From assembly GCF_001592735.1 (NCBI RefSeq), contig NZ_LUKE01000002.1, forward strand, positions 62,001 through 126,000: a stretch of 64,000 nt of DNA. The letters are read 5' to 3'. The notes below the pieces were generated by a model. That model ran no database searches. It was not told the DNA's origin and worked only from the letters and a program-made list of their open reading frames with translations. Shown one piece after another: positions 8,209-47,478 of the stretch; the stretch's first letter is position 1, and each line of letters begins with the position of its first letter. This DNA comes from Bdellovibrio bacteriovorus. Lineage in GTDB: Bacteria > Bdellovibrionota > Bdellovibrionia > Bdellovibrionales > Bdellovibrionaceae. A program made the position numbers and the translations under genes.

Positions 8209-8240
8209 AGTACTATGGTACTACCATTAGTAGTACTATG
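8203..8240. promoter_or_regulatory. Palindromic operator of the HEPN/MNT module
   Basis: TACCATAGTACTATGGTA at 8203-8220 is a perfect 18-bp palindrome overlapping the MNT start codon (8206-8208). The half-element TAGTACTATG at 8208-8217 is repeated directly at 8231-8240, 23 bp away. Ribbon-helix-helix repressors typically bind short repeated palindromic elements like this, and the MNT protein itself has an RHH-like N-terminus. Autoregulation is inferred. Confidence 0.6.
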
Positions 8241-8251
8241 AAAGAACTTTT

Positions 8252-9250: not shown

Positions 9251-9339
9251 GAAATGACTCCTTCCTGTGAAGGGTATCCCAAATGAAGGTGTTTTATTAA
9301 ACAATTTTACGCGTTGGGGTCTGGCGGCGTAGACTCCAA

Positions 9340-11231: not shown

Positions 11232-11272
11232 ATGACCTCTTTTGGGATAATGGTCATAATAACATGGTCATA
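11227..11272. promoter_or_regulatory. Operator-like repeats upstream of Phd/VapC genes
   Basis: GTCATATGAC (11227-11236) is a 10-bp palindrome over the antitoxin start codon. ATGGTCATA is repeated at 11250-11258 and 11264-11272. The shared GTCAT core spaced through the promoter region is the pattern expected for Phd-type autorepression. Binding is inferred. Confidence 0.5.
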
Positions 11273-11289
11273 TTTATAAATCAATGTCC

Positions 11290-11314
11290 TTTACGCTCTC
11301 TGGCAGAGCGTAAA
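11290..11314. terminator. Strong hairpin after the chemoreceptor gene
   Basis: TTTACGCTCT (11290-11299) and AGAGCGTAAA (11305-11314) form a perfect 10-bp stem with a 5-base loop. It begins six bases past the chemoreceptor stop and precedes the antitoxin promoter. The U-tract is poor, so termination may be partial or the element may stabilise the mRNA end. Confidence 0.5.
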
Positions 11315-11319
11315 TTAAA

Positions 11320-18999: not shown

Positions 19000-19156
19000 A
19001 TCTGTTCCTTTTTTTTTAAAACAGCCACCTTTAACAAAATATCCACAAAAGATACTTGCCAAAACCTAAAAATTTTCACCGATCACCCCGTTTTAAACAA
19101 TGCGAAATGCTCTGCATAATCTTGAAATCGTTACCGTTTCTAATTAGATTCAGCTA

Positions 19157-30455: not shown

Positions 30456-31706
30456 TCAGACGCGCGCTCTTAAATACCTTAGTAATCTATAACTTAGAGG
30501 CTGAGATAAAACCTTGTGCCCCTTAAGAACGGAGAATGCCAATTTATCCCTCTCCAGACAATCAATTAATTTTTCTGCAGCGGAATCTATCGAATGGTTT
30601 TTTTCGAAGTAGTTATAGCTTTTTTTACACAGCAGGGCGTAGTTCTGATCCAGGGCCGCTATAACTTTACTCAAACTCTGGTTACCACTCGTAAAGCTAT
30701 TTCCATTTATCACGTCCCCAAGGACATATCCATCCTGCTCAAATAAAAACTGATAAACGTAATCCCCTGTTATGGGAACGTAGGAAATATCTAAAAGCAC
30801 CGTCGGAACACCCATGCGTGCACCTTCTAAGGCGGAAGTTCCCATGGCGAATAAAACATCGACCTCGTCCCGAAGGAACTTTTCAACCTCGCTGGTTGTC
30901 AACTCAGAGATATAGCGAACTTTAAAAAAGTTATTTTCTAAATTTGCTTCTTGAATGAGATATAGATATTCGCCGCGCCCCACAACCGTGAACTCAATAA
31001 CCCGCTCTTGTTCCATAGCTAAATGGGCCATTTTGCGCATTGTGTATAATAAAATATGAACTTTGAAGTCCGCGATACGACCTATCCACGCAGCTCGCAG
31101 CGGAGACCTCACGTTGCGGACTTCTAAATCGCAAATTTCGTCTACGCCCTGGAGAGTCACGGGTAGATATTCTCTTTTATCACAGTTCACACCAAAAATT
31201 CGCTCGGTGGTATCCAGATTCACCCGATCCATAAATGCGATGGCGTCATACTTCAAAAGTAATTTTAAAAATCGGACCACACGTAATTTATAGGCGAATA
31301 AAATACTGTTCAGAAAGAAAATGATTCGCGTTTCGGAACCATGAAGCCAGTTCCGCAAGCCCGGGATGGCCGGCACAAGGTTATAAGGGTAACAATTCCA
31401 AAAAAAGAGCTTACAGCCGTCTAAAGGCCGCAAGGAAGAGTAAATCGACCAAGGTGTCATTGCTTGCAGCACCAAAATACCGTTGTCAGGAATTACAACC
31501 TCAAGATCATCTTTATATTCAAGCAGCTTCACCTGTGCAGACTTACGGTGTGTCGCCATATATCCATCAGCATAATCGACAATATAAATTTCGTTGGGAA
31601 TTTTCCCTGCAAGATACTCTGCCATTCTTAAAAAGAGCAAAGAAACCCCGCCCACCTCTCGGTAAGGAAAACAAAAAAATATCACCTTATTCTTTAATCG
31701 TTCCAC
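30456..31706 (-). CDS. GT-B type glycosyltransferase, unassigned
   Basis: This 416-residue protein begins with VIFFCFPYREVGGVSLLFLR, the GT-B nucleotide-sugar enzyme opening with a GG near the N-terminus. It has an Arg-based C-domain strand (AAWIGRIADFKVHILLYTM), FTVVGRGEYL and FAMGTSALEGARMGVPTVLL with a phosphate-binding-like Glu. These features support GT4-like chemistry, but the EX7E motif is imperfect. The start is GTG 31706 and overlaps the sulfotransferase stop by 13 bases; an internal GTG eight codons later is an alternative. Probably one of the repeat-unit transferases. Confidence 0.72.
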   Translation of the reverse strand: MERLKNKVIFFCFPYREVGGVSLLFLRMAEYLAGKIPNEIYIVDYADGYMATHRKSAQVKLLEYKDDLEVVIPDNGILVLQAMTPWSIYSSLRPLDGCKLFFWNCYPYNLVPAIPGLRNWLHGSETRIIFFLNSILFAYKLRVVRFLKLLLKYDAIAFMDRVNLDTTERIFGVNCDKREYLPVTLQGVDEICDLEVRNVRSPLRAAWIGRIADFKVHILLYTMRKMAHLAMEQERVIEFTVVGRGEYLYLIQEANLENNFFKVRYISELTTSEVEKFLRDEVDVLFAMGTSALEGARMGVPTVLLDISYVPITGDYVYQFLFEQDGYVLGDVINGNSFTSGNQSLSKVIAALDQNYALLCKKSYNYFEKNHSIDSAAEKLIDCLERDKLAFSVLKGHKVLSQPLSYRLLRYLRARV

Positions 31707-32740
31707 AGGTATTCCGGCAATTCCTTTTCAATGGAACGAATTATTTCTTGATCCGAAAAGGCTTTCCACTTTCCTACGTGCACAGAAGACTTTCGTGGAT
31801 CAAAGTAACGCCCCTTTTCGATATGATTTTTTTTATCTTCTCCTAAAAATTCGATGATCTGCTCAAGGCAATGATCATATTTAGTGACCAGGTTTTCATA
31901 CTGTAGAATCAAGACTCTAGAGTCGCTTCCCGAGTAAAGATGCTGCATGTACGTCCGGTAGCGCCTAATGAATAGTTCTAAATCATCCGTCGCCAAAAAA
32001 GATTTATTAATTCCGTCATTTTCACCGGCTTGAAGCTTGATATCTTCCGACTTCAAGGCGTGGGCGTTAATTCCGGAAACATAAATGTCTCGGGGATCAC
32101 GAATCACAATGATGGACTTAGAATTTTTTAAAATATCCAAAGATCTAACAGGATTAAACGCTTCAAAAGCATTATTAAAAAAAATAGTCCTGACGTTGCT
32201 ATCTACGGTACTTTCAAATAACTTATTGATGAACGAACTTACCTTTTCAGAGAAGTTTTCTCCATCAACAAGCTGGACCCAGCTTCGCGCCCGAAGCCTG
32301 AATCCAGACTTGAGCAATAACTTACTCCAAAATCTTTGCAACACACCATAGGTCAAGAAATCATAGGGCCAATATGCAAGATACTCTCCAAGGACCAAGC
32401 TTTTTACAAACTTCTTCGCTTCGGGAGTAAAGGTGCCTTTGAATCGCAGGTCATAGCGATTGCCAGTGACTGACATGGTTTGAAAAATATTGAGCCTTCT
32501 AGGACTTGGACCTATTAAGTCCACCACGCGCAAAAAAGCATTGATAGCATAATGGGATCTTACCGGCGACCAATCTTCACACAAATGATGTTTAAGATCG
32601 AGAAGGCCCCCGGGCAATCGAAAAAGATCAAACTCAAACGAGTGCTCTGGAATATAGTATGAGTCAAACTCTCGCAGAATATCTGAGACCGCCGTTTTTC
32701 CTGAATTCCCTACGCCAGAGACATCTACAAATTTTTTCAT
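31694..32740 (-). CDS. Sulfotransferase-family protein
   Basis: This 348-residue protein is a predicted PAPS-dependent sulfotransferase. The 5'-phosphosulfate loop is GVGNSGKTAV at 9-18 and the 3'-phosphate motif is SIIVIRDPRDIYVSGINA, both in the expected order. VLILQYENLVTKYD and a C-terminal helix follow. It lies among sugar transferases, so sulfation of a glycan repeat is likely. The product starts at an ATG 3 bases after the aminotransferase stop. Few residues are shared with kinases of similar P-loop type, so the call rests on both motifs. Confidence 0.82.
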   Translation of the reverse strand: MKKFVDVSGVGNSGKTAVSDILREFDSYYIPEHSFEFDLFRLPGGLLDLKHHLCEDWSPVRSHYAINAFLRVVDLIGPSPRRLNIFQTMSVTGNRYDLRFKGTFTPEAKKFVKSLVLGEYLAYWPYDFLTYGVLQRFWSKLLLKSGFRLRARSWVQLVDGENFSEKVSSFINKLFESTVDSNVRTIFFNNAFEAFNPVRSLDILKNSKSIIVIRDPRDIYVSGINAHALKSEDIKLQAGENDGINKSFLATDDLELFIRRYRTYMQHLYSGSDSRVLILQYENLVTKYDHCLEQIIEFLGEDKKNHIEKGRYFDPRKSSVHVGKWKAFSDQEIIRSIEKELPEYLWND

Positions 32741-34720: not shown

Positions 34721-35485
34721 CTATTGAGTTAATTTTTTAAATGCGTGCACCGCTTCGGACATTCCTACTTCATACATGCGCGCTTCAAAACTGTAGGCTA
34801 TGAAATCAAAGCCACCTTTGATGGCCTCTTGAACCTTCGCAAGACTTGGTTCAACGACATGAATGCCTCGAGCTTTTTTATTTTTAATATTTGATTCTTC
34901 GATCTTAGACATCGCAGCAAGAAAATCCGGAGCATCGAATTGTCCTGGCTTCCCTAAAGAAGCCGAAAGATCGTAAGGTCCGACAATAAAACCATCCACC
35001 CCAGGAACACTCATAATATCATCAAAATTATTAACCGCATCAATATGTTCAATTTGAACGATGAGTACAGATTCCTTCGAGAGCCACTCACGATATTCGG
35101 AGAATCCGGCCCCATACTTCTGGGCCGAAGACAAACCTACGCCACGAGTCCCCGTTGGAGGGTAATGCATTGCGCGATAAGCTTTCATGGCCTGCTCGCG
35201 AGAGTTCACCATCGGAACAATAATTCCAGAAGCCCCAGCATCCATGACTCTTTTAATTTGAATTGGATCATTGTCCGAAAGCCTTACCAGCATCGAAACA
35301 CCGTTGCTTCGGCCTATGTTTATCAATGTGGCCATTTGATCTAAGTCGATCGAACTATGCTCAAGATCAATACAAATCCAGTCCAAACCTGAGTTGACTG
35401 ATATTTCCACGAATGCCCTGTGTGCCAAGGTAATCCAGGTCCCAAGAGTGGGAAGATGTTTTTTGAGTTTTTCTTTCAATTCCAT
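34721..35485 (-). CDS. HpcH/HpaI-family aldolase
   Basis: This ~254-residue TIM-barrel class II aldolase of pyruvate with an aldehyde has LGTWITLAHRAFVEISVN, the metal/phosphate region DLEHSSIDLDQM, and DAGASGIIVPMVNS. QIEHIDAVNNFDDI and VDGFIVGPYDLSASLG follow. Start at ATG 35485; an upstream TTG at 35521 is weaker. Such aldolases usually act in aromatic or sugar-acid catabolism; here it lies between amino-sugar genes and the adenylation enzyme, so a biosynthetic role in making or breaking a hydroxy-keto acid substituent is plausible. No direct evidence chooses a substrate. Confidence 0.82.
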   Translation of the reverse strand: MELKEKLKKHLPTLGTWITLAHRAFVEISVNSGLDWICIDLEHSSIDLDQMATLINIGRSNGVSMLVRLSDNDPIQIKRVMDAGASGIIVPMVNSREQAMKAYRAMHYPPTGTRGVGLSSAQKYGAGFSEYREWLSKESVLIVQIEHIDAVNNFDDIMSVPGVDGFIVGPYDLSASLGKPGQFDAPDFLAAMSKIEESNIKNKKARGIHVVEPSLAKVQEAIKGGFDFIAYSFEARMYEVGMSEAVHAFKKLTQ

Positions 35486-35568
35486 GAGGCGTAGCCTAAC
35501 CAAATCAAGCTGCTTATACAAATGAAAAGGTCATAACTATCAAATGTTTGGCGCGTTAAGAACGCAAA

Positions 35569-37050
35569 TCAAGTGAACTTCGATGACACAATCCAATCTT
35601 TAAATTCTTGCTTCAAAAACTTTCGATCAATCTTGCCATTTATATTCAAAGGAAATGAGTTTTTCGCAAAAATCTTCCTCGGTATCGCATATTCCGGCAA
35701 TATCTGAGAGAGTTCTACTTTAAGCTGTTGTTCATTGATAACCGCCGCTTCAACAAAAACGGCGACAACTGCATTTCCATGATTGTCATGCTCAAAAACC
35801 GCGACAGTGCTCTTTGCGCAGATTTTAGAACATGCATTTTCGATTTCCCCAAGTTCAACGCGAAAGCCTTGAATCTTAACTTGCTGATCGACCCGGCCAC
35901 AAAAGAAATAATCACCAGCAGCATCCCTAATGGCAATGTCACCAGTCTTATAAAAGCGTTCTCCACTAGACGTTTTAAAAAATGCTTTCTTCGTATTTTC
36001 CGGATCCAGATACCCAGGAGTTACTTGAGCCCCCCCAAGGCAAAGTTGTCCCTCGCACCCTGAGCCTTCGACAACATTTTCACTGTCATCAATAAGCATT
36101 AATTTTGTATGAGCCATAGGCTTACCAATCGCCAATATGCCATTTCGAGCAGAAGGCGTACTGCATTCAAAAGCCGCACAGTAAATTGTGGCTTCAGTGG
36201 GACCATAGAAGTTCCAATGCTCGGCATTGGCGCAGGATTTTTTCCACAGCGAAAGATCTTGCTCCAAAAGTGCTTCACCACAAAACGTAGAATATCGAAG
36301 TTCCGGAAAACTAACTCGCGGAAGATAAGGACGAAGAAAATTTATAATAGATGGCACCATAAGCGCATAAGTTATGCGCTCATCTTTTAACGTTTTATAG
36401 ACTGATAGATACTTCGCATTTCCACTTTTTAAAGGATAAACAGATCCACCGACCAGTAACGGCAGCAAATAGGAGACGACGGAAAGATCAAATGAAAAAT
36501 CAAACATTTGAAGAAACCGGTCAGAAGCACTCAGATGCAATCCGAGCTTTGCATGTGCATCGAAGAAGGACTCCAAATTACCTATAGATATAGGCACACC
36601 CTTTGGAACGCCAGTGGATCCGGATGTAAATAAAATATAGGCAATCTGCTCTGGATAAACCCCCGGCGAGGGACTTTTATCAACAAGCTCATTCGAATTT
36701 ACAAAATTGATCGTAAGGTCTTTAAAAACGTCCTTGGCCTCAATATCACTAAAAAACAAAAACCTTATTTCAGCTGCCACGATGATGTTTTTATTTTTTT
36801 CTGGAGGCTGACTACTTAAAATTGGAACAAAGGTATTGCCCGAAAAAAGTACGCCCAAGATCGTCGCATAGGTTAGAAAATCCTGCTGCGCCAAAACTCC
36901 AATTCTTTCGTTTTTTCGACCGCTCAGAAAACTTGCGATTTCCTGAATCTTTTCCCCTAATTCAAAATAAGTGTAATGGCGCTCATCAAAAACAAAGGCC
37001 GTGGCCTGGGGTGAGCGTTTGATATTCTCCAGAATTTGGTTCAAAATCAT
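35569..37050 (-). CDS. DltA-like amino acid adenylation enzyme
   Basis: This 493-residue stand-alone adenylate-forming enzyme activates an amino acid with ATP and loads it on a carrier protein. Visible motifs are the P-loop FTSGSTGVPKG (141-151), FYGPTEAT (281-288), YKTGD (367-371), GRVDQQVKIQGFRVE (385-399) and C-terminal lysine in NGKIDR (Lys473). STFCGEALL around Cys257 matches the FCGE of DltA, where this Cys lines the D-Ala pocket (established for Bacillus DltA). So a small amino acid is likely. I start at ATG 37050 with GGAAG upstream. It is divergent from the formyltransferase and carrier-protein genes. Confidence 0.88.
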   Translation of the reverse strand: MILNQILENIKRSPQATAFVFDERHYTYFELGEKIQEIASFLSGRKNERIGVLAQQDFLTYATILGVLFSGNTFVPILSSQPPEKNKNIIVAAEIRFLFFSDIEAKDVFKDLTINFVNSNELVDKSPSPGVYPEQIAYILFTSGSTGVPKGVPISIGNLESFFDAHAKLGLHLSASDRFLQMFDFSFDLSVVSYLLPLLVGGSVYPLKSGNAKYLSVYKTLKDERITYALMVPSIINFLRPYLPRVSFPELRYSTFCGEALLEQDLSLWKKSCANAEHWNFYGPTEATIYCAAFECSTPSARNGILAIGKPMAHTKLMLIDDSENVVEGSGCEGQLCLGGAQVTPGYLDPENTKKAFFKTSSGERFYKTGDIAIRDAAGDYFFCGRVDQQVKIQGFRVELGEIENACSKICAKSTVAVFEHDNHGNAVVAVFVEAAVINEQQLKVELSQILPEYAIPRKIFAKNSFPLNINGKIDRKFLKQEFKDWIVSSKFT

Positions 37051-37100
37051 GGTTCTTCCAGTCATATACAGGATAGCTTTTAGTACCAGAGAGGCAAATT

Positions 37101-38051
37101 TTGGGCAATTTTAAAAAAAAGGTGGTTTTGATCGGCAACGGCATGCTCCCTTCCCTTTGCGCGAAGCATCTAATTGAACGGCCCGATGTGGACCTCAGCT
37201 TTATTGTGGTCGACGACAGCCCTCAACGCTATGGTACTGGACTTGAAAATGCCGCTGAAAAATTCAATATCCCCTTTAAAAAAGTTCAGAAGATTCGCGG
37301 TTCTGAGATAGAACGAAGAGTTCAAGAACTAAGGCCGAATTTCTTACTCAGTATTTGTAATTCTCAAATCTTAAGGCCCGAACTTCTTTCTGCCTGCGAA
37401 GTGGCAATTAACTTTCACAATTCACTTCTTCCTACTTACGCGGGATCGAACTCTTGCACTTGGGCTATTTTCAAAGGCGAAAAAAATTTCGGGGTCACAT
37501 TCCATCTCATTGAGGGCGAGGTAGATTCCGGTGCTATCATCCTGCAAAAGTCATATCCGATCCCGGACAACGCCACAGCAGGACACCTTTTACTGACCGG
37601 AGCTCACAGAGGATTTGAACTCTTCAAAGAAGGGATCGATTTAGTTTTAAATAATATCATGCCCCCCCGCCACCAACAATTAACCGAAAGAACTTACTTC
37701 ACCGCAAAAGAAAGACCAAATGACGGCTGGTTCAATTTTCACTGGTCCACATCCGAATGTCTGCGCTTCTTGAGGGCTTTCGATTATGGCCCTCTGCAAA
37801 GCCCCGTAGGACTTCCGAGAATTAAGATAAAGGATAAGATTCTGTATGTCTCTACAGGCCGTGAGTCTAAATCTCCAGTACCGAATATACCAGAAGGAAG
37901 CATTCATCTGATCGATGACGGCATCACCGTAAGAGTTAAGGACGGCTTAATTGAATTGACTTCATTTTTTACAGAAGATATGAGGAAGCTAAGTTTGTCA
38001 GAAGTAATTGCTGAATATAAAATCCAAGACAAGATGATTTTGTCTAATTGA
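37101..38051 (+). CDS. N10-formyl-THF formyltransferase family protein
   Basis: This 316-residue protein has the Met-tRNA formyltransferase-type catalytic set in INFHNSLLPTYAG: Asn104 and His106, plus Asp142 in GEVDSGAI. Its C-terminal ~110 residues are unlike the tRNA-binding domain of true Met-tRNA formyltransferase and are closer in length to sugar N-formyltransferases. It could formylate a dTDP-amino sugar from the neighbouring Fdt-like genes, or an aminoacyl carrier protein, as the F domain of LgrA does on its carrier domain. The TTG start has GAGAGG 7 bases upstream. The adenylation gene is divergent (51-base gap). A run of seven C residues is at 37662-37668. Confidence 0.85.
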   Translation: MGNFKKKVVLIGNGMLPSLCAKHLIERPDVDLSFIVVDDSPQRYGTGLENAAEKFNIPFKKVQKIRGSEIERRVQELRPNFLLSICNSQILRPELLSACEVAINFHNSLLPTYAGSNSCTWAIFKGEKNFGVTFHLIEGEVDSGAIILQKSYPIPDNATAGHLLLTGAHRGFELFKEGIDLVLNNIMPPRHQQLTERTYFTAKERPNDGWFNFHWSTSECLRFLRAFDYGPLQSPVGLPRIKIKDKILYVSTGRESKSPVPNIPEGSIHLIDDGITVRVKDGLIELTSFFTEDMRKLSLSEVIAEYKIQDKMILSN

Positions 38052-38072
38052 AGTCTGAGAGAAATAGCACTA

Positions 38073-38315
38073 ATGAACCATAACGAAATACTTGAACAAC
38101 TCACGCCGATTTTTGCTAAAGTCTTCTTCGATGAATCCATTAAAATTTCAGAAAAAACGACGGCTGCTGATGTCGTGGGATGGGATTCGTTGAATCATGT
38201 TGCCTTGATTTCTGAAGTTGAAAATCATTTCAACGTACAATTTGATATCGATGATATAGTTTCCATGAAAAATGTTGGCGACATGGTCGCCCTTATTCAA
38301 AAGAATGTGGACTAG
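38073..38315 (+). CDS. Acyl carrier protein (DltC-like)
   Basis: This 80-residue carrier has four-helix ACP features and the phosphopantetheine attachment Ser39 in VVGWDSLNHVAL. It is acidic and compact, as expected for a stand-alone carrier. It starts 22 bases after the formyltransferase stop on the same strand, so those two are probably one transcript. The adenylation enzyme and MBOAT genes flank the pair. The end overlaps the DltD-like gene by four bases, tail to tail. In Dlt systems the carrier brings an aminoacyl thioester to DltB. Confidence 0.9.
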   Translation: MNHNEILEQLTPIFAKVFFDESIKISEKTTAADVVGWDSLNHVALISEVENHFNVQFDIDDIVSMKNVGDMVALIQKNVD

Positions 38316-39379
38316 TTCCGCGATTGACTAGATTGTCTTTGGGACATGTTTTCTAATAAAAAGTCGGTTACAATTTTTCGGCCCGGACTTAGAACATGCC
38401 CACCGTCATAAAAGTACTCATCTGGAACAATATCAGAAATATCCATAATCTCTGATACTTCAGAACTACTCTTTAAAACATTATATAGCGAAGACTTTAG
38501 CCACTCCAGACGCTTGTCATTCCTAAGAGCAGAGTGCTCCGGAAGCATCAGAACAACAACCTTCCCATTTTTTGACATAGAACCTAAGTCCTTTAACGCT
38601 CTTTTTAAACTTTCTGTAGAACTTAAATCCGGTCTAAAATCGCTTTTTTCTAAATGTTTTAGTAGCTCTTTTATCCGCAAACTCTGGTTGACGGGGTCAT
38701 AAGACTTATCGCCATAAAGAAATTCTGACCTTGGGGAAAACTTAAGTAGGTCTTCAGGCACACTCGAGACTTTATCTGAATAAATGAAATCATGCAATTT
38801 TAAGCAAGCCAGTCTTACCATCTGCCCTACTCGCCATGTGTACAAAGATAGCGGAAATATGTCGTTAGCAATTAACTTTCTTTTCAATTGTTCTCGAGAA
38901 CCCTCCACCTCTACGGAAAGTAAGTCACCCTGTGCAGAAAAAGTCATTAGATCATCAATACCTGAATGGAGTGTACTTAAGTAACCTGGACGCAAAATAT
39001 ATGACTGAAGGCCCACGAATACATAGTCACTCCGGCTGCCATACTTCTTAAACAACTGACTAAACAACTCTAAACTTGGCGCGAGGCCGTCAAAGGCGCC
39101 AGTTCCAAGATTTGTGTATTTAAATCCATCACGTCCAGCGTTTAATACATCTTCGTCAAATGCTTCCCGAGCTGAAGAAATACCCATGATCGTAACCAAA
39201 CGGTCTTGAGAATTCATCATTCTCATTTTATAAAATTGATTGTGAAATGCAGTATATGATTTTTCATACAAGCTGGCACTACCTCGGTAGTAGGAAATGA
39301 CGAGTGAGAGACTCCACACCCCAGCAAACACCAGAATCAAAGAAAGCGCGAACTGCGCCGAACGCTTAAAACCCCGCAT
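38312..39379 (-). CDS. DltD-like SGNH membrane protein
   Basis: This 355-residue protein has one N-terminal membrane anchor (residues 8-30) and an extracytoplasmic SGNH/GDSL-like domain. The candidate nucleophile is Ser68 or Ser69 in MGISSAREAF, and DGGHVLSPGR supplies Asp325 and His328. This set resembles DltD, a membrane-bound SGNH protein in D-alanylation. It overlaps the microprotein gene by 14 bases and follows the MBOAT gene. AlgJ/AlgX-type acetyltransferases are the main alternative, but the microprotein and carrier favour a Dlt-type system. Confidence 0.78.
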   Translation of the reverse strand: MRGFKRSAQFALSLILVFAGVWSLSLVISYYRGSASLYEKSYTAFHNQFYKMRMMNSQDRLVTIMGISSAREAFDEDVLNAGRDGFKYTNLGTGAFDGLAPSLELFSQLFKKYGSRSDYVFVGLQSYILRPGYLSTLHSGIDDLMTFSAQGDLLSVEVEGSREQLKRKLIANDIFPLSLYTWRVGQMVRLACLKLHDFIYSDKVSSVPEDLLKFSPRSEFLYGDKSYDPVNQSLRIKELLKHLEKSDFRPDLSSTESLKRALKDLGSMSKNGKVVVLMLPEHSALRNDKRLEWLKSSLYNVLKSSSEVSEIMDISDIVPDEYFYDGGHVLSPGRKIVTDFLLENMSQRQSSQSRN

Positions 39380-39491
39380 ATATAAACGTCAAAATATCTT
39401 TATTATACATGCTCATCGCTAAAAATGCTTTGAGAGTTATGAAGATTATGGTTAAACAAATTTTTCCGACTGTCTTTAGCTCATTCTTCAT
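39366..39491 (-). CDS. DltX-like microprotein ending FIYAGF
   Basis: The 41-residue protein starts at ATG 39491, two bases after the MBOAT stop, and overlaps the DltD-like start by 14 bases. It has one hydrophobic helix at about 7-27 and ends in FIYAGF (36-41). DltX of Gram-positive dlt operons is a ~50-residue membrane microprotein with a conserved FIYNxF C-terminus whose Tyr is proposed to carry the acyl group. Here Tyr38 occupies that place and Ala replaces the Asn. The location between DltB- and DltD-like genes makes the identification strong despite the short length. A longer 70-codon reading from 39578 overlaps the MBOAT gene and is less likely. Confidence 0.72.
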   Translation of the reverse strand: MKNELKTVGKICLTIIFITLKAFLAMSMYNKDILTFIYAGF

Positions 39492-39493
39492 TT

Positions 39494-40636
39494 CTATTTT
39501 CCCAACATCAGGTTCATAGCAGGATGAATCGCCAATGAAATCATAATAAAAGTATACACGGGACCTAAAAGCTTCCAAACGATTACCACGTAATTATTTT
39601 TATCCCACCCCTTCTTTTTTATGAGGTCGAATGCAAACTTCTCCACCGTGATAATTATTCCCAGAAGAATTCCCCAAACTAAAAAACGGAAATGAAACCC
39701 ATGCCACGCCCCAATGAAGACGAAGGATACAAATAAGACAAAGGCATTAAAATAAAGCAACTGCTCAACTGTTCGTCTTTTTGACCGAGTGTACTTCATC
39801 TGCATTGGAAAATAGATATTCCGTCGTATCCAATCCCCTAAAGACATGTGCCATCTATTGTAAAAACTAGAAACGCTCGGTGCAGAAAAGGGGCTTCGAA
39901 AATTTTCAGGAGTATAAAGTCCTAATATTCGCCCTGCACCCATCGCAATCAATGTATATCCCGCAAAGTCAAAAAAAGTATAAATGAAGATAACACCAGT
40001 ATCTAAAACGGTTTTTGATACGATATCACCATTGCCAAAATAAATAATTCTTACAACCTCTGCGCAGAAAAGCTTATAGAAGAACCCCGTTACCAGTAAG
40101 TTTATCGCATTTAAAACGCCCGAAAAATTTTCACAAGGGTCCCGTTCACTGAAGCTTTCACAAAATTTTTTAAAAGGGGCTATGGGACCAGCAAAATGCA
40201 TATTAATGGGCATCAGGTAAGATAATAAAAAAGCGAAGTTCAGAGTGTCATGTCTCGTTTTTTTTACTTTAAGAATATTGAACGCATCTATGGCCCTAAG
40301 AAAAATATACGAGTACGGAATTATAAGGAGTGCATTCCACAAAGATTTTTCTTGGGCCAAACTAAGAAGCTTGTAAACACAGAAAAAGATCACTAGAGCC
40401 ATCGGCAGGAATATAGATATCCTAGGGAGCTTTTCGACCATTCTTGCGGAAAAGAACAGCACCGTTGAAAGCAGTAGCAAAAACAATGCCTCTTTCCATC
40501 CAAGGAATACCCACAACAATGCAAAATTAACCAATCCGGTAAGCCAAATTTTTAACGATAAATTACTGAATGATCTTAAAAAAACCCCGCATCCAATAAT
40601 ACAGATCCAAAATGTGGGATTTAAGAAAAGATTCAT
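39494..40636 (-). CDS. DltB-like MBOAT acyltransferase
   Basis: This 380-residue polytopic protein of the membrane-bound O-acyltransferase family has about 11 hydrophobic segments, SSFYNRWHMSLGDWIRRN at about 256-273 and the catalytic His312 in GAWHGFHFRFLVWG. DltB takes an aminoacyl group from carrier protein in the cytoplasm and passes it across the membrane through DltX. This gene is followed by the DltX- and DltD-like genes, matching the order of the transfer apparatus. AGGA lies six bases before ATG. AlgI-type acetyltransferases share the fold, so the Dlt link depends on neighbours. Confidence 0.9.
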   Translation of the reverse strand: MNLFLNPTFWICIIGCGVFLRSFSNLSLKIWLTGLVNFALLWVFLGWKEALFLLLLSTVLFFSARMVEKLPRISIFLPMALVIFFCVYKLLSLAQEKSLWNALLIIPYSYIFLRAIDAFNILKVKKTRHDTLNFAFLLSYLMPINMHFAGPIAPFKKFCESFSERDPCENFSGVLNAINLLVTGFFYKLFCAEVVRIIYFGNGDIVSKTVLDTGVIFIYTFFDFAGYTLIAMGAGRILGLYTPENFRSPFSAPSVSSFYNRWHMSLGDWIRRNIYFPMQMKYTRSKRRTVEQLLYFNAFVLFVSFVFIGAWHGFHFRFLVWGILLGIIITVEKFAFDLIKKKGWDKNNYVVIVWKLLGPVYTFIMISLAIHPAMNLMLGK

Positions 40637-40658: not shown

Positions 40659-41783
40659 TCAGGATGTGACCGCTCTAACACTTTCAATGACATAAGCGAC
40701 ATCGGAGTCACTCAAATCGACATGCAATGGCAATGACATCAGGGACCGCCCTAAACTCTCAGCCTTAGGTAAAGCGTAAGAAGATCGATACAATGACAAC
40801 AAATGATTGGGGAAATAGTGCGCGCCGGTCGCCACGCCTCTGGCGCTTAGAGAGTTGGCCACTTCTTCACGATCACCATCAATTTTCACGACGAAAATGT
40901 GGGGTACTATGGTTCGAAAATCTATGTCCAGAAGATGAACACTCTTTATCCCACGCAAGCCTTGAACATACTGCTGCGCAATCTCTCGACGACGTTTTGA
41001 AAACTGATCAATTTTCTTTAGCTGTTCGCGACCAATTGCCGCCATGAGATCACTCATGTGATAGCGAAACCCTTGATGTTTTACATCAAACACCCAGGAG
41101 CGAGCACCTTGGTATCTTTTTTCTGTGTCCTTTTCTACGCCCAAAAGTCGAGCGTCACGAACTCTCTGCGCCAGAACAGGGTCCGCAGTGACAATAACTC
41201 CCCCTTCGCCGCTGGTAATATTTTTGATACCGTCAAGACTGAAGCAAACAATGTCTCCCTCACGGCCAACTCTGCTCCCCTTACGGTCGCCACCTAAAGA
41301 TTGAGCGGCATCCTCAATCACTCGTAAATTATATTTTCTTGCGAAACCATAAACTTCATCGATGTATTTCGCACTACTCGCATAATGGACCGGCATGATT
41401 GCCTTTGTCTTGGAGGTAATGCGTCTTTCTGCATCTTCTAAGTCAATAAAGACACTAGATTCTTCAACATCACAGGCAATCGGCTTAGCTCCCACTGCTG
41501 AGATCGCTTGATAGCTGGCTACATAAGTGATTGACGGAACCAAAACTTCATCATCACTTTTTAAATCTAAACAGAGAGCCGCAAGATGCAAAGCGGCAGT
41601 GCCCGTATTCACGCAAATAACTTCCAGGTCAGTATCAAGGTACTTTTTGAGCTCCTGTTCAAAAAGCTGAACCTCTTTGCCCATCCCTAAGTATTCATTA
41701 TCCAGGACGCGACAGACGGCATCTTTTTCTTCTTGTCCGACAGAGCATTTAGAAAGGCGAATTTTACGGATTTCACCACTCAT
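40659..41783 (-). CDS. DegT-family sugar aminotransferase near CDP-sugar genes
   Basis: This 374-residue PLP enzyme has VNTGTAALHLAALCLDL, EDAAQSLGGDRKGSR and PLP lysine in FSLDGIKNITSGEGG. The lysine argues against a RfbH/ColD-like dehydratase, which carries His there. I start at ATG 41783 with GAGGAG upstream; the frame from 41798 is a TTG and longer. It is downstream of RfbF, RfbG and a cupin, so a CDP-4-amino-4,6-dideoxyhexose is a reasonable product. It leads directly into the MBOAT-DltX-DltD-like genes (22-base gap). Confidence 0.88.
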   Translation of the reverse strand: MSGEIRKIRLSKCSVGQEEKDAVCRVLDNEYLGMGKEVQLFEQELKKYLDTDLEVICVNTGTAALHLAALCLDLKSDDEVLVPSITYVASYQAISAVGAKPIACDVEESSVFIDLEDAERRITSKTKAIMPVHYASSAKYIDEVYGFARKYNLRVIEDAAQSLGGDRKGSRVGREGDIVCFSLDGIKNITSGEGGVIVTADPVLAQRVRDARLLGVEKDTEKRYQGARSWVFDVKHQGFRYHMSDLMAAIGREQLKKIDQFSKRRREIAQQYVQGLRGIKSVHLLDIDFRTIVPHIFVVKIDGDREEVANSLSARGVATGAHYFPNHLLSLYRSSYALPKAESLGRSLMSLPLHVDLSDSDVAYVIESVRAVTS

Positions 41784-42201
41784 AAGAAATCTCCTCAATC
41801 GGAGCGTTTACAGCTTCACTTGGATCATGTTCAATGTTGGCAATATTTAAAAGAATATTTGATTCAATTCCGATGCCTTGAAAAGCCAACCACAAACCGG
41901 GTGAAACCACCAAACGAGCGTAATTCTTTTGCGACAAAGTGACCTCAAAGAACTCGCCTGACGAGGCGCTGTCTTGTCTATCGTCGTATATGACGAAACG
42001 TACTTCTCCGCTTATGACAATTAAACTTAGAGTCATCCGTGTATGTTTTTTCCAGCCTTTCCTAGCCCCTTCGTAAACGGAAGAAAAATAGGCTTCGCCA
42101 AAGCCTGCAAAAGAGTTTTCCGAGGCTTTCAGGCCGTGAAACACGTCGCCTAAGGGATTGGCAATTCTTTTTAAGGGTATAAGTTGCACCCCTTCTAGCA
42201 T
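41773..42201 (-). CDS. RmlC/WxcM-like cupin epimerase
   Basis: This ~142-residue cupin has MLEGVQLIPLKRIANPLGDV, YFSSVYEGARKGWKKHTRMT (His in a basic patch) and VVSPGLWLAFQGIGIESN. It is related to dTDP-4-dehydrorhamnose 3,5-epimerase but shorter and with altered active-site region. I start at ATG 42201, overlapping the RfbG stop by 7 bases; an upstream frame to 42360 would overlap by 166 bases. Probable role is epimerisation or isomerisation of CDP-4-keto-6-deoxyglucose made by RfbFG. The exact reaction is not determined. Confidence 0.72.
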   Translation of the reverse strand: MLEGVQLIPLKRIANPLGDVFHGLKASENSFAGFGEAYFSSVYEGARKGWKKHTRMTLSLIVISGEVRFVIYDDRQDSASSGEFFEVTLSQKNYARLVVSPGLWLAFQGIGIESNILLNIANIEHDPSEAVNAPIEEISYEW

Positions 42202-43304
42202 CGAGCCGCCCACTCTATATTTTGTTTTTTTGCCAATTGAACGTATTCGGTGATTTGTTTTGATGTAAAGGCAAACATGTCGCCTTTTTCTTTGTAGTAA
42301 AGACTGTACCAATCCACGACAAAATGAACTGTCTGGTAATAACCCAAAGTAGCTTGCCACTTCATATCGAAAAGAGCCTTGTCACAGTTTAACTTAAGCA
42401 ACCCTGCTTCATTAAACGGACGATTGTCCGTTATTTCGTACGCCTTGTCACTGCTCTCAAATCCCCAACGCATGGACATGTCGATAAGCAAGTCAACCAC
42501 GGTACGATTTTGTTCCGCACGCGGACCAAAGTTATAAGCTTGCCCGTGAAAATCTTGAGATTTGTATAAGTTTTTACCTAGTTCTAAATAGCCACTCAAT
42601 GGCTCAAGAACGTGCTGCCAAGGACGTGTCGCTTTAGGGCTTCGGATGGCCACTTTCTCTCCCGCAGCCCAAGCCCTGGCAATATCTGCGACGATACGAT
42701 CTGCAGCCCAATCGCCCCCGCCGATAACGTTACCTGCGCGTGCGCTGGCTACAACGACGGGATGCCCTTCTTTTTTAAAAAAAGTCTCTACGTACGAATG
42801 AATGACATTTTCAGCGGCGGCCTTAGAGGCACTATATATATCTTTGCCACCTAAGTGATCGGTTTCCTTATATCCCCAGCACCACTCTACGTTTTCGTAA
42901 CATTTATCGCTAGTGATCATTACTGCGACACATTTTTTTGGATAGTCCCTGAGCACGTCTAAAACATGCGCCGTACCCATGACATTACTTTGCAAAGTCC
43001 GAATAGGATCCTGATAGGATTTGGATACAATAGCTTGCGCCGCAAGGTGAAAAACAAAATCAGGCTTTTCGGCATGGATCACATGATAAACTTTGTCTCT
43101 CTCAAGAAGATCAAACTCATAATGCTTAATTTTATCTCGCAGTTTCAAAGTTTCAAATAATGAAGGATTGCTGGGGATATCACAGGATATACCCACAACG
43201 TCCGCTCCCATAGAAAGCAACCATACAGTAAGCCATGAGCCCTTGAAGCCGGTATTCCCAGTGACAACGACCTTTTTGCCCTTATAGATATTTTCGAAAG
43301 ACAT
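42195..43304 (-). CDS. rfbG: CDP-glucose 4,6-dehydratase
   Basis: SDR that converts CDP-glucose to CDP-4-keto-6-deoxyglucose. I start at ATG 43304, sharing a base with the RfbF stop (TAATG) and followed by FENIYKGKKVVVTGNTGFKG; the frame to 43385 is inside rfbF. The 369-residue product has FHLAAQAIVSKSYQDPIRTL, ITSDKCYENVEWCWGYKE (S/T, then Tyr-Lys later in DIYSASKAAAE) and RPWQHVLEPLSGYLELG, all typical of RfbG. It directly follows the RfbF gene. Confidence 0.95.
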   Translation of the reverse strand: MSFENIYKGKKVVVTGNTGFKGSWLTVWLLSMGADVVGISCDIPSNPSLFETLKLRDKIKHYEFDLLERDKVYHVIHAEKPDFVFHLAAQAIVSKSYQDPIRTLQSNVMGTAHVLDVLRDYPKKCVAVMITSDKCYENVEWCWGYKETDHLGGKDIYSASKAAAENVIHSYVETFFKKEGHPVVVASARAGNVIGGGDWAADRIVADIARAWAAGEKVAIRSPKATRPWQHVLEPLSGYLELGKNLYKSQDFHGQAYNFGPRAEQNRTVVDLLIDMSMRWGFESSDKAYEITDNRPFNEAGLLKLNCDKALFDMKWQATLGYYQTVHFVVDWYSLYYKEKGDMFAFTSKQITEYVQLAKKQNIEWAARC

Positions 43305-44077
43305 TACTCCCAGACTTTCCAGCTTGCTTTGCGCTCGCCCCACATTTTTTCTAAAACATCTTTGTCGCGAATAGTATCCATGCAATGCCAGAATCCATCA
43401 TGCTGATACGCCATCAATTCTTGATCTTTTGCCAATCTCTCAAGTGGTTTCTGTTCCAAGATCGTATGATCACCTTCAAGATAATCGAAAACACCCTTGT
43501 TAAAAACAAAGAAGCCCCCGTTAATCCAACCTTCGCCAACCTGAGGCTTTTCATGGAAGTCGATCACCTTACCGCTCTGAATTTCTAAAGCACCAAAGCG
43601 TGCCGGCGGCCGCACCGCTGTTACTGTAGCGATCTTTCCATGAGACTTATGAAACTCTACAAGCTTTTTAATATTCACATCTGATACGCCATCACCATAC
43701 GTAAGCATGAAAGTTTCCTGATCTAGCAGATAAGGCTTCAAGCGAAGAAGCCTTCCGCCAGTCAATGTATCGTGACCGGTGTCGTTAAGATGAACGACCC
43801 AATCTTCGTTCGCAGAGCGACGATAATTTACCTGCCCGTCCTTCATATTCAAAGAAAAGTCCCGAGTTCTGGAAAAGTAATTGAGAAAGAAATCTTTGAT
43901 CACATGGCCTTTGTAGCCTAATGCGGGTAGAAACTCGTTGTATCCGTGAGCTGAGTATATTTTCATAATATGCCACAGAATCGGCATGCCTCCGATTTCC
44001 ACCATCGGCTTGGGCCTTAAAACAGTTTCTTCAGATAATCTCGTGCCTAATCCACCGGCAAGAATGACGACTTTCAT
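43304..44077 (-). CDS. rfbF: Glucose-1-phosphate cytidylyltransferase
   Basis: Makes CDP-glucose from CTP and glucose-1-phosphate. I start at ATG 44077, preceded by AAAGGA at 7 bases; upstream residues to 44176 are not conserved. The 257-residue product has the nucleotide-binding MKVVILAGGLGTRLSEET, RPKPMVEIGGMPILWHIMK and FMLTYGDGVSDVNI typical of RfbF. Divergent from the plus-strand SIS gene, so a shared promoter region lies at 44078-44285. Confidence 0.95.
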   Translation of the reverse strand: MKVVILAGGLGTRLSEETVLRPKPMVEIGGMPILWHIMKIYSAHGYNEFLPALGYKGHVIKDFFLNYFSRTRDFSLNMKDGQVNYRRSANEDWVVHLNDTGHDTLTGGRLLRLKPYLLDQETFMLTYGDGVSDVNIKKLVEFHKSHGKIATVTAVRPPARFGALEIQSGKVIDFHEKPQVGEGWINGGFFVFNKGVFDYLEGDHTILEQKPLERLAKDQELMAYQHDGFWHCMDTIRDKDVLEKMWGERKASWKVWE

Positions 44078-44285
44078 TGATGTATCCTTTAAATAGTTAC
44101 TGAGCCTGACTACTCTCCTAAAAAAGGGCCCCGGGATCAAGTTGATAGTATTCATTTCCCCAAGGAGGAACCGCATCGCCGCACCGCGCGAACAGGCAGA
44201 CCAAGTATCTTGTTTGCACTTTGTGAGAGTTTTACTTAAGATGGCCCAGCTTTTAAAAACGATTCATTTTGGAGAATTTAAGGCC

Positions 44286-44894
44286 ATGCAAAACAGACTA
44301 GATGAGATTTTTACCGAGAACAGAAACCCTGCACAGTTTGCCCAAAAATACGGAAGTTATCTAGGCGAAGTTTTATCGAAGCTCGATTATAACGCCATCG
44401 GAAAAATGATTGAAACAGTTTTGGATGCTCGCGAAAGAGGCGCCCACATATTTTTTATCGGGAACGGTGGAAGCGCAGCTACGGCTTCACACTTCGCCAA
44501 CGATATTTCCATCGGCACTCGCGTTACAGATAAACCTTTTAAAGCGATGGCCCTTACTGACAACGTTGCGATTTTAACGGCCGTGGGTAACGATGATGGA
44601 TACGAGGTAATTTTCACCAAACAACTGCAAAACTTTGCAAATCCTGGTGACGTTCTAGTTGCTATTTCAGCTTCAGGAAACTCTCCGAATATTATCCACA
44701 CCGTTAAGTACGCAAAAGAAAAAGGGCTTAAAGTCATCGGCTTGACGGGCTTTGATGGTGGAAAACTTCGTGAATTAAGCGACATCAAAATCCATGTTGA
44801 TACTCGCAAAGGTGAATACGGTCCGGTCGAAGACGTTCATATGTTTGTGGATCATCTGATTGGCTCATACTTCAATCGTATTGTTAAAGTATAA
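44286..44894 (+). CDS. SIS-domain sugar isomerase, GmhA-like
   Basis: This ~202-residue protein contains one SIS domain: GNGGSAATASHF at 59-70 binds the sugar phosphate, then ALTDNVAILTAVGNDDGYEV and VAISASGNSPNIIHTV. GmhA isomerises sedoheptulose 7-phosphate to a heptose phosphate. I start at ATG 44286; further ATG at 44241 and the frame to 44142 are possible, but their leader looks non-conserved. It begins a plus-strand four-gene unit with 1- or 4-base overlaps. GmhA-like enzymes of glycan loci sometimes have other substrates, so the activity is inferred. Confidence 0.82.
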   Translation: MQNRLDEIFTENRNPAQFAQKYGSYLGEVLSKLDYNAIGKMIETVLDARERGAHIFFIGNGGSAATASHFANDISIGTRVTDKPFKAMALTDNVAILTAVGNDDGYEVIFTKQLQNFANPGDVLVAISASGNSPNIIHTVKYAKEKGLKVIGLTGFDGGKLRELSDIKIHVDTRKGEYGPVEDVHMFVDHLIGSYFNRIVKV

Positions 44895-45664
44895 TGGCTC
44901 ACTGCGGGACAAGCGAAACTGCGCAATTTATTCAGATAGCAGAGGAGGCATGCCGTGCTGGTATGCGCTCCCTGAAGTCTACAAAGAATAGCTTCGAGGT
45001 CATTTCACAGTCAGACAAGGACATCAAACTTTCCGCCGATATTGCCGCCCAGTCAGCTATCATCCAGATCCTACAGCAAAAATCTTCGTTCCGAATTATT
45101 TCTGAGGAACAAAAAAACTCACCCATCACAGACAACGAAACTGTATGGATCGTAGATCCTCTGGATGGAACCCTTAATTTTTCACGCGACATTCCCTTTT
45201 ATGGAGTCAGCATAGCTTTATGGAAAGGCGATACCCCTATTTTGGGAGTCATCGGAGACTCTTTCTATGATGAGATTACTTCGGGTGGCATAGGCCAATC
45301 CGTGACTAACAATTCTAAAAAAACTCAGGTGAGTAGCCAGACTGACATCGCTCAATCCGTTCTCGCTACAGGATTTCCGGTTCAAAGTGACCTATCAAAC
45401 AATGCACTCAACTCGTTGTTCGATTCAATTAGAGCTTTTAAAAAAGTCAGGATGTTTGGCAGTGCCGCACTTTCGCTTCGTTTAGTGGCTCAAGGAAAAA
45501 TAGAGGCTTACTTCGAAAAAAATATTTTCCTTTGGGATGTAGCCGCGGGCATCGCTCTAGTCAAAGCCGCCGGGGGCTCTGTGAAAATGATCCCAAAAGA
45601 TAATTTTAAATATGATGTCCTTGCAACAAACGGACAGATTGCAGTGGAGTCTATACTTCTATGA
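44894..45664 (+). CDS. Inositol monophosphatase family phosphatase
   Basis: This 256-residue metal-dependent phosphatase shows the family metal sites: EE at 71-72, WIVDPLDGTLNF at 85-96 (Asp88 and Asp91), and the late FLWDVAAGIALVKAAGG. Substrates in the family include inositol phosphates, histidinol phosphate, fructose bisphosphate and PAP. Its ATG overlaps the SIS stop by one base, which suggests sequential action on a sugar phosphate. It could remove a phosphate from the product of the SIS enzyme. PAP removal after the sulfotransferase step is another possibility. Confidence 0.87.
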   Translation: MAHCGTSETAQFIQIAEEACRAGMRSLKSTKNSFEVISQSDKDIKLSADIAAQSAIIQILQQKSSFRIISEEQKNSPITDNETVWIVDPLDGTLNFSRDIPFYGVSIALWKGDTPILGVIGDSFYDEITSGGIGQSVTNNSKKTQVSSQTDIAQSVLATGFPVQSDLSNNALNSLFDSIRAFKKVRMFGSAALSLRLVAQGKIEAYFEKNIFLWDVAAGIALVKAAGGSVKMIPKDNFKYDVLATNGQIAVESILL

Positions 45665-46620
45665 GTGACGTCGTTGCAGTAGCTTCGCGCTCTTTTTCTT
45701 CTGACTCTTTTTTGAGAGATTCCCTCTTAGCCTTGTATCCTAAAGCCCGCTTTAATGAATCGGGTAAGAGTCTTTCTGGCAAAGAGTTGGTTGATTTTCT
45801 GAAGGGAGCTCCCAAGGCTATTATCGCACTTGAAAAAGTGAATCAGGAGCTGGTAAACCAACTTCCTGATCTTAAATTGATTAGCAAGTATGGTGTAGGT
45901 TTAGATAACATCGATTTTACCGCCCTTGAAAAGAATAATGTTCGTCTTTCCTGGACCGGCGGAGTAAATCGGAGATCTGTCGCCGAACTTACTTTGCATT
46001 TCATTCTGGGCACCGTAAGAGGAAGTTTTCACAGTCATCATGATCTCCAGAATAATCACTGGTTTCAATTTAAGGGATACAACCTTTCAGGAAAGACTGT
46101 AGGCATTGTGGGATTAGGACACGTCGGCAAAGAGCTCGTCCCTTTTTTAAAACCTTTTGGAGTTAAGATCCTAGCTTATGATCTTAAAGAGCGTTCTGGA
46201 TATTGCCAGGAAAACGCAATTACTCAAGTATCCAATCTCGAAGATCTTTTATCTAACTCGGACGTCATAACAATTCACGTGCCTCACACTAGCCTCACTC
46301 ATATGTTTTTCGATGAGAAAAGAATGGCTAAAATAAAAAAAGGAAGCTTTTTAGTGAATACAGCTCGTGGCGGGATTGTCGACGAAACTGCCCTTTTTGA
46401 GATGTTAAAAAGTGGGCATATTGCCTCTGCCGCTTTTGATGTTTTTGATAATGAACCCCTCGCGGACGAAAACTTAATGTCGTTGCGAAATTTCTACTTT
46501 ACGCCTCACATCGGGGGATCCTCTGTTGAGTCTATTCGGGCGATGGGCCTGGCCGCGATTGAAGGACTTTCCACCGGTAAAATCGCACGTCCTGAGAACT
46601 TTTTCGACTATCCATTATAG
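45661..46620 (+). CDS. D-isomer 2-hydroxyacid dehydrogenase
   Basis: This 319-residue NAD-dependent oxidoreductase has SKYGVGLDNIDFTAL, the cofactor loop VGIVGLGHVGKEL (GLGHVG at 151-156), catalytic Arg in NTARGGIVDE, a Glu downstream in FDVFDNEPL, and His in FTPHIGGSS. It resembles phosphoglycerate dehydrogenase without its regulatory domain. ATGA overlap with the phosphatase gene indicates coupling. In this setting it may oxidise or reduce a 2-hydroxy acid for a sugar substituent; the substrate is unknown. Confidence 0.88.
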   Translation: MSDVVAVASRSFSSDSFLRDSLLALYPKARFNESGKSLSGKELVDFLKGAPKAIIALEKVNQELVNQLPDLKLISKYGVGLDNIDFTALEKNNVRLSWTGGVNRRSVAELTLHFILGTVRGSFHSHHDLQNNHWFQFKGYNLSGKTVGIVGLGHVGKELVPFLKPFGVKILAYDLKERSGYCQENAITQVSNLEDLLSNSDVITIHVPHTSLTHMFFDEKRMAKIKKGSFLVNTARGGIVDETALFEMLKSGHIASAAFDVFDNEPLADENLMSLRNFYFTPHIGGSSVESIRAMGLAAIEGLSTGKIARPENFFDYPL

Positions 46621-46623
46621 CGC

Positions 46624-47286
46624 ATGAAGAAAACTATTTTCCTATCTCACTATCTTAATGAAACGACCCCTGGCTACGGTGGCAAACAAGGTTTTTTCAA
46701 AAAAATCTCGTCTGACATTGCTCAAGGTGCGTCTTCCAATTCTCAAGAGTGGACTTTATCAAATCACATTGGGACGCATATTGATCTTCCTCTGCACTTT
46801 GATAGCAACGGAAAATGCCTCAATGATTATAGGGCGGAGGAATGGATCTTTCGATCGCCTCACCTACTAGATCTCCCAGCAACGTCCGATCAAATAATAG
46901 GCCCCAATATCGCCTTTGAATCTGTCCCACACGAATGCGATATGCTGATATTAAGAACCGGATTTGAAAAACACAGAAATAACGCCACTTATTGGTCAAA
47001 CAATCCCGGCCTGTCTCCAGATCTTGCTATTTGGCTAAGAACACATCGCCCTAATATAAAAGTACTTGGGTTCGACTTCATTTCGATCACCTCATACTCA
47101 AACCGCCCATTGGGAAGATTAGCGCACAAAGAGTTTTTGGCAAAATCCGGCACGGGTGCTCCCCTAAGAGTTATCGAGGATATGAAACTCGAAGAACTTC
47201 AGAACTCTCCCAGCATGGTCGTGGTTTCACCCCTTCTTGTAGATCGTGCTGATGGGGCCCCTGTTACGGTCATCGCCATTTGCTAG
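46624..47286 (+). CDS. Cyclase-family (kynurenine formamidase-like) hydrolase
   Basis: This 220-residue metal-dependent hydrolase has the family motif HIGTHIDLPLH with His48, His52, Asp54 and His58 in the metal site. LRTGFEKH and the late VSPLLVDRADGAPVTVIAI close the fold. Members include kynurenine formamidase and isatin hydrolase. Its start is three bases after the dehydrogenase stop. If a formamide or lactam is made by the locus, this enzyme could cleave it, but no substrate is shown. Confidence 0.82.
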   Translation: MKKTIFLSHYLNETTPGYGGKQGFFKKISSDIAQGASSNSQEWTLSNHIGTHIDLPLHFDSNGKCLNDYRAEEWIFRSPHLLDLPATSDQIIGPNIAFESVPHECDMLILRTGFEKHRNNATYWSNNPGLSPDLAIWLRTHRPNIKVLGFDFISITSYSNRPLGRLAHKEFLAKSGTGAPLRVIEDMKLEELQNSPSMVVVSPLLVDRADGAPVTVIAIC

Positions 47287-47444
47287 CGGGCCCATCGTCG
47301 GATTCCCGCGATAAAAGAATTATTAAGCATGGTTTAATATTTATAACTTGTGGAAATGACCCCTCGAGACTTAGAAAAAAACCACGGATCAAATGCTGGA
47401 TCTTTGATGCTATTCCAGAACAAATCCAACTAAAAGTGAAGTCA

Positions 47445-47473
47445 TAGCCAGGCCTAAATCAATGGCCTGGCTA
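47445..47473. terminator. Hairpin between convergent operons
   Basis: TAGCCAGGCC (47445-47454) and GGCCTGGCTA (47464-47473) form a perfect 10-bp stem with a 9-base loop, between the plus-strand cyclase gene (ends 47286) and the minus-strand oxidoreductase gene (ends 47479). It may stop both transcripts, although neither side has a strong U-tract. Confidence 0.6.
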
Positions 47474-47478
47474 ACACA

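Follow-up and report, generated by a model that had tools for sequence, protein, structure and literature searches.

In systems that pair an MBOAT protein with an SGNH protein, those using acyl-CoA fuse the acyl-shuttle motif FXYXXF to the C-terminus of the MBOAT protein (PatA-type), whereas in the Dlt system, which uses a carrier, a separate microprotein (DltX) bears it (PMC12148441). A different chemistry is found in the nonribosomal peptide synthetase (NRPS) LgrA, whose formyltransferase domain formylates an amino acid bound to a peptidyl carrier protein (PMC8150014). N-formyl-aminoacyl chemistry also exists on glycans, since the O2 O-polysaccharide of Vibrio anguillarum carries an N-formyl-L-alanyl group (PMC10059132). 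Here we analyze a stretch of 64,000 nucleotides from Bdellovibrio bacteriovorus (contig NZ_LUKE01000002.1, positions 62,001 to 126,000; hereafter the window) in which six neighboring genes encode a stand-alone adenylation enzyme (A), a formyltransferase (F), an acyl carrier protein (ACP), a DltB-like MBOAT protein, a DltX-like microprotein and an SGNH-like protein. On balance, we consider it slightly more probable than not that these genes combine a formylating initiation module, split into separate genes, with a Dlt-like transmembrane acyltransferase.

All six open reading frames (ORFs) proposed in a sequence-only reading of the window were confirmed at their coordinates (Table 1), as were the motifs claimed for A, F, ACP, the MBOAT protein and the microprotein. 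Profile searches against Pfam and NCBIfam, used to assign the window proteins to families, gave clear results for A (AMP-binding, 191 bits; AA-adenyl-dom, 296 bits), F (Formyl_trans_N, 71.8 bits), ACP (PP-binding, 28.2 bits) and the MBOAT protein (MBOAT, 71.4 bits). A contains the motifs TSGSTGVPKG and NGKIDR, and the catalytic N104, H106 and D142 of F show no or almost no variation across 36 relatives. The identities of these four proteins, their catalytic motifs, the shuttle motif, the gene order and the recurrence of A/F/carrier trios elsewhere can be read from sequence comparison.

The formyltransferase is the component that sets this locus apart, and its phylogenetic position points to a carrier-bound substrate. 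In a maximum-likelihood tree, F grouped with NRPS F domains and with the formyltransferases of split A/F/carrier trios, apart from sugar formyltransferases and the Met-tRNA formyltransferase Fmt (support 98/96); after the addition of eight more sugar formyltransferases, the branch uniting F with the NRPS domains and split trios had support of 100/99. F did not group with the characterized sugar nucleotide N-formyltransferases. Its profile scores were 226 bits for the split trios, 190 for NRPS domains, 150 for sugar formyltransferases and 74 for Fmt. In approximately unbiased (AU) tests, placing F as sister to ArnA-type enzymes gave p 0.00016, to a DegT-linked plasmid formyltransferase 0.016, to formyltransferases of legionaminate clusters 0.022 and to WbkC 0.049; these are single-test values uncorrected for several tests, and by them sisterhood with sugar enzymes appears rejected or borderline. 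The AlphaFold model of F shows the full formyltransferase fold (predicted local distance difference test score, pLDDT, 93), and a fold search with it matched Fmt, ArnA and WbkC alike, without separating the substrate classes.

The gene neighborhoods of F relatives point in the same direction. Among 72,556 plasmid records, the best E-value (7e-29; 30% identity over 256 residues) belonged to an Agrobacterium protein encoded in an A-ACP-F trio. When 84,980 species were scanned with a profile built from three sequences, 54 relatives of F emerged; 43 of them had an A domain, fused in one ORF or encoded nearby, a share biased by the preference of the scan for sequences with two motifs in common with the query. 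In distant bacteria, the F relative lies beside A and a carrier protein in overlapping or abutting genes (Table 1). Two of these trios are housed in glycan clusters, each with another kind of acyltransferase, and the neighbors of the set in Desulfonema magnum include sugar transferase, exosortase and DegT genes. The AAC(3)-like and KAS III-like enzymes that follow the two trios are possible candidates for cytoplasmic formyl-aminoacyl transferases. The occurrence of A/F/carrier trios in unrelated glycan clusters suggests a wider theme. Tentatively, and with somewhat less than even confidence, we propose a portable A/F/carrier cassette that makes N-formyl-aminoacyl thioesters for glycans, here joined to an MBOAT/DltX/SGNH relay that would give an O-ester, and elsewhere feeding AAC(3)-like or KAS III-like transferases.

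The membrane components argue for a carrier-bound donor. The C-terminus of the window MBOAT protein has no fused shuttle motif; the motif ends instead a microprotein with one predicted transmembrane helix (residues 8-26), the sole FXYXXF-ended ORF among the 1,430 ORFs of at least 25 aa in the window. Two comparison loci from Gram-negative bacteria of the same taxonomic order, in which A lies beside the MBOAT gene with a carrier nearby and no F (L042 and L047), also have a separate microprotein, ending in FVYQEF and FVYQQF, respectively. A locus without A and ACP (L140) has a fused FIYFQF, and one with both (L036) has no clear shuttle motif. Over these few loci, the separate microprotein supports a carrier-bound donor for the MBOAT protein, and the Dlt-like transfer route anticipated by the sequence-only reading is supported by the DltB-like MBOAT protein and its separate FXYXXF microprotein (PMC12148441). 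L042 and L047 are themselves compact Dlt-like sets (A, MBOAT, microprotein, DltD-like protein and carrier), and their MBOAT proteins have Asn (WNG) at the position of the window His312 (WHG). At L140, two formyltransferase-like genes lie in tandem within an amino-sugar cluster that also encodes a PIG-L-like deacetylase and an MBOAT protein.

The amino acid substrate can be predicted in outline. The pocket code of A (DLVLTCFIYK) is identical to none of the aligned codes, and Leu194 and Cys262 are the only pocket positions that agree with AlmE and DltA. The equivalent residues are important in the glycine-activating AlmE and common to the D-alanine-activating DltA (PMC11253843). Because of this agreement, and of the bulky Phe286 and Tyr295 at the pocket bottom, the code suggests, as a weak prediction, a small amino acid, with glycine as the most likely guess. 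A scores best against module 2 of LgrA (191.5 bits) and has no close relative in 148 related genomes. The best solved relative of ACP is 2lml (64.5 bits), and BLASTP detected no similarity between ACP and the Agrobacterium carrier.

The SGNH-like protein is the least securely placed member of the set. It has an N-terminal transmembrane helix (residues 10-28) and the motifs G66-I-S68 and D325-G-G-H328. These motifs and its gene position suggest the DltD-like identity proposed in the sequence-only reading; there was no match to the DltD family PF04914, which the corresponding protein of L042, from the same taxonomic order, matched with 105.7 bits. No other Pfam or NCBIfam family was matched, and no homologue was detected in the related genomes, the plasmids or the PDB, or with a profile from L042 and L047. 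The single-sequence AlphaFold model (pLDDT 38) was unusable.

From these components we infer a series of reactions, including its order, the amino acid, the choice of the formylated group as MBOAT substrate, the SGNH step and the acceptor. A would activate glycine or another small residue and load it onto the phosphopantetheine arm of ACP. F would then use N10-formyl-tetrahydrofolate (N10-formyl-THF) to formylate this residue at its amino group while it is bound to the carrier, as in LgrA (PMC8150014). The MBOAT protein could carry the N-formyl-aminoacyl group from ACP across the inner membrane and onto the tyrosine in the FIYAGF motif of the microprotein, from which the SGNH serine would receive it and esterify the O-antigen or a lipid-linked repeat. 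The acceptor is more likely an O-antigen than a teichoic acid. The suggestion that F, A and the carrier act together as in an F-A-T module is independently supported by the grouping of F with NRPS F domains and split trios and not with sugar formyltransferases; that the MBOAT protein accepts the formylated aminoacyl group in preference to the free one is a presumption.

Several observations weigh against this mechanism. The best solved relative of F is the GDP-perosamine formyltransferase WbkC (74 bits), LgrA scoring just 29 bits. Support for F with the split trios (93/87) fell to 62/88 once more sugar formyltransferases were added, and a placement of F immediately outside the group of NRPS domains and split trios was not rejected (p 0.26). 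The window ACP differs from the trio carriers and is nearer to the carriers linked to A in related bacteria lacking F, and the role of the SGNH-like protein as a DltD analogue is proposed from motif and position. Nor was the full six-gene set found in 148 related genomes, in 369 genomes of the phylum (searched with F only) or in the plasmids, and the neighborhood is thus not conserved among the relatives searched. Finally, no N-acyltransferase other than F is assigned to the amino sugar of the adjacent operon. This last point, like the similarity to WbkC, would be explained if the locus served two independent modifications, with F formylating an amino sugar still attached to its nucleotide (the 4-amino sugar of the CDP-glucose/aminotransferase operon upstream of the MBOAT gene being the likeliest) and the remaining genes forming an ordinary Dlt-like system for an unformylated aminoacyl ester. 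The cluster provides dedicated hexapeptide transferases for two of its other amino sugars, related bacteria have A, ACP and MBOAT genes without F, and the other formyltransferases of the phylum occur in sugar clusters: the six loci inspected in the phylum-wide search with F held only sugar-type enzymes, beside nonulosonate or other amino-sugar genes. We nevertheless find this division of labor rather unlikely, given that phylogeny, profile scores and AU tests put F with carrier-acting enzymes, that F and ACP share a two-gene unit and that the trios recur in other phyla.

A coupled A/F/ACP module might also deliver its thioester differently, N-acylating an amino sugar nucleotide in the cytoplasm, as probably happens at L056, while the MBOAT protein, microprotein and SGNH-like protein move another acyl group. 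The trios of L056 and L075 adjoin soluble acyltransferases, and the polysaccharide in which V. anguillarum O2 bears its N-formyl-L-alanyl group is built of amino sugars (PMC10059132); yet the window trio has no AAC(3)-like or KAS III-like gene beside it, and the presence of a separate DltX-like microprotein suggests that the MBOAT protein draws on a carrier-bound donor (PMC12148441), which leaves this route improbable. Decay or chance assembly of cassettes without joint function would fit the broken gene order across two strands and the absence of the set from close relatives. We judge it very improbable, as the catalytic motifs are all intact, the genes overlap or are tightly spaced, and the only FXYXXF-ended ORF of the window lies exactly where one would be expected. 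The coupling of a split formylating module to Dlt-like transfer remains our preferred reading.

Table 1. Coordinates of the six genes, of their neighbors in the window and of comparison loci.
Feature	Sequence	Position	Strand	Length (aa)	Details
A, stand-alone amino acid adenylation enzyme	window	35569..37065	-	498	ATG at 37065 or 37050
F, formyltransferase, N10-formyl-THF family	window	37101..38051	+	316	TTG start
ACP, stand-alone acyl carrier protein	window	38073..38315	+	80	Ser39 in GWDSLNH
SGNH-like periplasmic protein	window	38312..39379	-		proposed final acyltransferase (DltD analogue), from motifs and position
DltX-like microprotein	window	39366..39491	-	41	C-terminal FIYAGF at 39369-39386
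DltB-like MBOAT protein	window	39494..40636	-	380	His263 and His312
DegT-family sugar aminotransferase (PseC/ArnB-like)	window	40659..41798	-		directly upstream of MBOAT, same strand
3,5-epimerase-like protein (weak)	window	41773-42360	-		
CDP-glucose 4,6-dehydratase	window	42195-43385	-		TIGR02622, 464.3 bits (above cut-off)
Glucose-1-phosphate cytidylyltransferase	window	43304-44176	-		TIGR02623, 373.8 bits (above cut-off)
CDP-sugar gene set as a whole	window	40659-44176	-		
SIS-domain to oxidoreductase block	window	44142-48528			
HpcH/HpaI-family aldolase	window	34721-35521	-		
Sulfotransferase domain protein	window	31694-32740	-		
Aspartyl/asparaginyl beta-hydroxylase family protein	window	18307-19062	-		
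A-ACP-F trio	Agrobacterium, two species; pAtCFBP5507a				
A-F-ACP trio	Cytophagales metagenome-assembled genome, WGNT01000193.1 (L056)	8139-11727			NeuB cluster; then AAC(3)-like transferase
ACP-A-F-ACP	Desulfonema magnum (L075)	7984-12183			then KAS III-like protein
A/F/carrier trio	alphaproteobacterial metagenome-assembled genome				luciferase-like gene in between
Compact Dlt-like set	L042	8707-12910			
Compact Dlt-like set	L047	1256-5369			
Tandem formyltransferase-like genes	L140	7863-9585			

The six genes do not form a single operon. The MBOAT, microprotein and SGNH genes lie on the minus strand, where the microprotein ATG is 2 nt past the MBOAT stop and the 3' end of the microprotein gene overlaps the SGNH start; F and ACP form a two-gene unit on the plus strand with a gap of 21 nt; and A, on the minus strand, is divergent from F with 36-51 nt from start to start. 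Around them extends a large cluster for an O-antigen or surface polysaccharide, which encodes a flippase, a Wzy-like protein, glycosyltransferases and a sulfotransferase domain protein and includes diNAcBac-type, FucNAc-type and dTDP-3-amino-sugar genes. Beyond the MBOAT gene, on the strand opposite to F, genes for a CDP-glucose synthase, a CDP-glucose 4,6-dehydratase, a DegT 4-aminotransferase and a weak 3,5-epimerase-like protein stand together, a gene set that suggests an unusual CDP-4-amino-6-deoxy sugar. The next block by coordinates encodes a SIS-domain protein, an inositol monophosphatase-like protein, a D-2-hydroxyacid dehydrogenase, a cyclase and a Gfo/Idh/MocA oxidoreductase, and adjoins a KdsB-like cytidylyltransferase; another locus (L139) has comparable SIS, dehydrogenase and cyclase-like genes near nonulosonate genes. 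An HpcH/HpaI-family aldolase is encoded between the dTDP-3-amino-sugar genes and A, and an aspartyl/asparaginyl beta-hydroxylase family protein between PglF-like and PglC-like genes.

No split-kind relative of F was recognized in the 369 genomes of the phylum, and neither A nor the SGNH-like protein has a close relative in the 148 related genomes; the set therefore looks recently acquired. A search of viral contigs with F gave no match. A Gram-negative Dlt-like locus with an added formyltransferase had been called unusual: the Dlt-like part is not so in itself, as L042, L047 and earlier work (PMC5541007) attest, and the parts and the trio were found elsewhere, but the complete six-gene combination was found in no other genome searched. 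In a literature search that mostly excluded subscription journals, we found no paper joining a formyltransferase, a carrier protein and adenylation with an O-antigen. If the proposed mechanism is correct, the locus provides a testable gene set for N-formyl-aminoacyl groups on O-antigens, and Dlt-like export can come after NRPS-type tailoring on a carrier protein; the portable cassette, if real, would be a general means of making N-formyl-aminoacyl glycans. Formylation would cancel the positive charge that D-alanylation adds. The purpose would thus be something other than resistance to cationic peptides, perhaps variation of antigens or of phage receptors.

Compared with the Dlt system (DltXABCD), known from Gram-positive bacteria and, in a few cases, from Gram-negative ones, the window shares an adenylation enzyme, a carrier, a DltB-like MBOAT protein, a separate FXYXXF microprotein and an SGNH-like protein (PMC12148441), but has an extra formyltransferase, a two-stranded arrangement in an O-antigen cluster and a pocket code other than that of DltA. 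The equivalog models for DltA (TIGR01734; A, 263.7 bits, cut-off 559.85), DltB (TIGR04091, LTA_dltB; 137.8 bits, cut-off 375, the only NCBIfam match of the MBOAT protein) and DltC (NF003464; ACP, 15.7 bits, cut-off 68) all scored below their cut-offs, whereas a DltX-type FXYXXF microprotein is present between the MBOAT and SGNH genes. By these curated models the set would be Dlt-like in its working, yet it is not a Dlt operon. PatAB-type O-acetyltransferases share the combination of MBOAT, SGNH and FXYXXF shuttle, but use acetyl-CoA as donor and have the motif fused to the MBOAT protein (PMC12148441).

With the F-A-T module of LgrA, the window shares the three predicted activities, a Formyl_trans_N domain with intact N, H and D residues and the grouping of F with NRPS F domains. 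The three functions are on separate genes and not in one polypeptide, no condensation domain accompanies them and they are sited in a glycan cluster; judged by its architecture, then, the set is not an NRPS module. Sugar formyltransferases such as WbkC, ArnA, FdtF and QdtF resemble F in fold, catalytic triad and N10-formyl-THF use, and differ from it in phylogenetic position and gene neighbors. In AlmEFG, which glycylates lipid A in Vibrio cholerae, a stand-alone small-pocket A and a carrier likewise feed a lipopolysaccharide modification (for AlmE, PMC11253843). Unlike the window, that system has no formylation, and among the genes of the window cluster scanned against Pfam no LpxL-like AlmG transferase came to notice, although no search was aimed at it. 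AlmG stands where the window has the MBOAT and SGNH-like proteins. The split trios of other bacteria match the window in having a stand-alone A, a carrier and the nearest relatives of F in adjacent genes; their carriers are of another type, and they continue into AAC(3)-like, KAS III-like or NRPS/glycosyltransferase genes where the window has the MBOAT protein, microprotein and SGNH-like protein.

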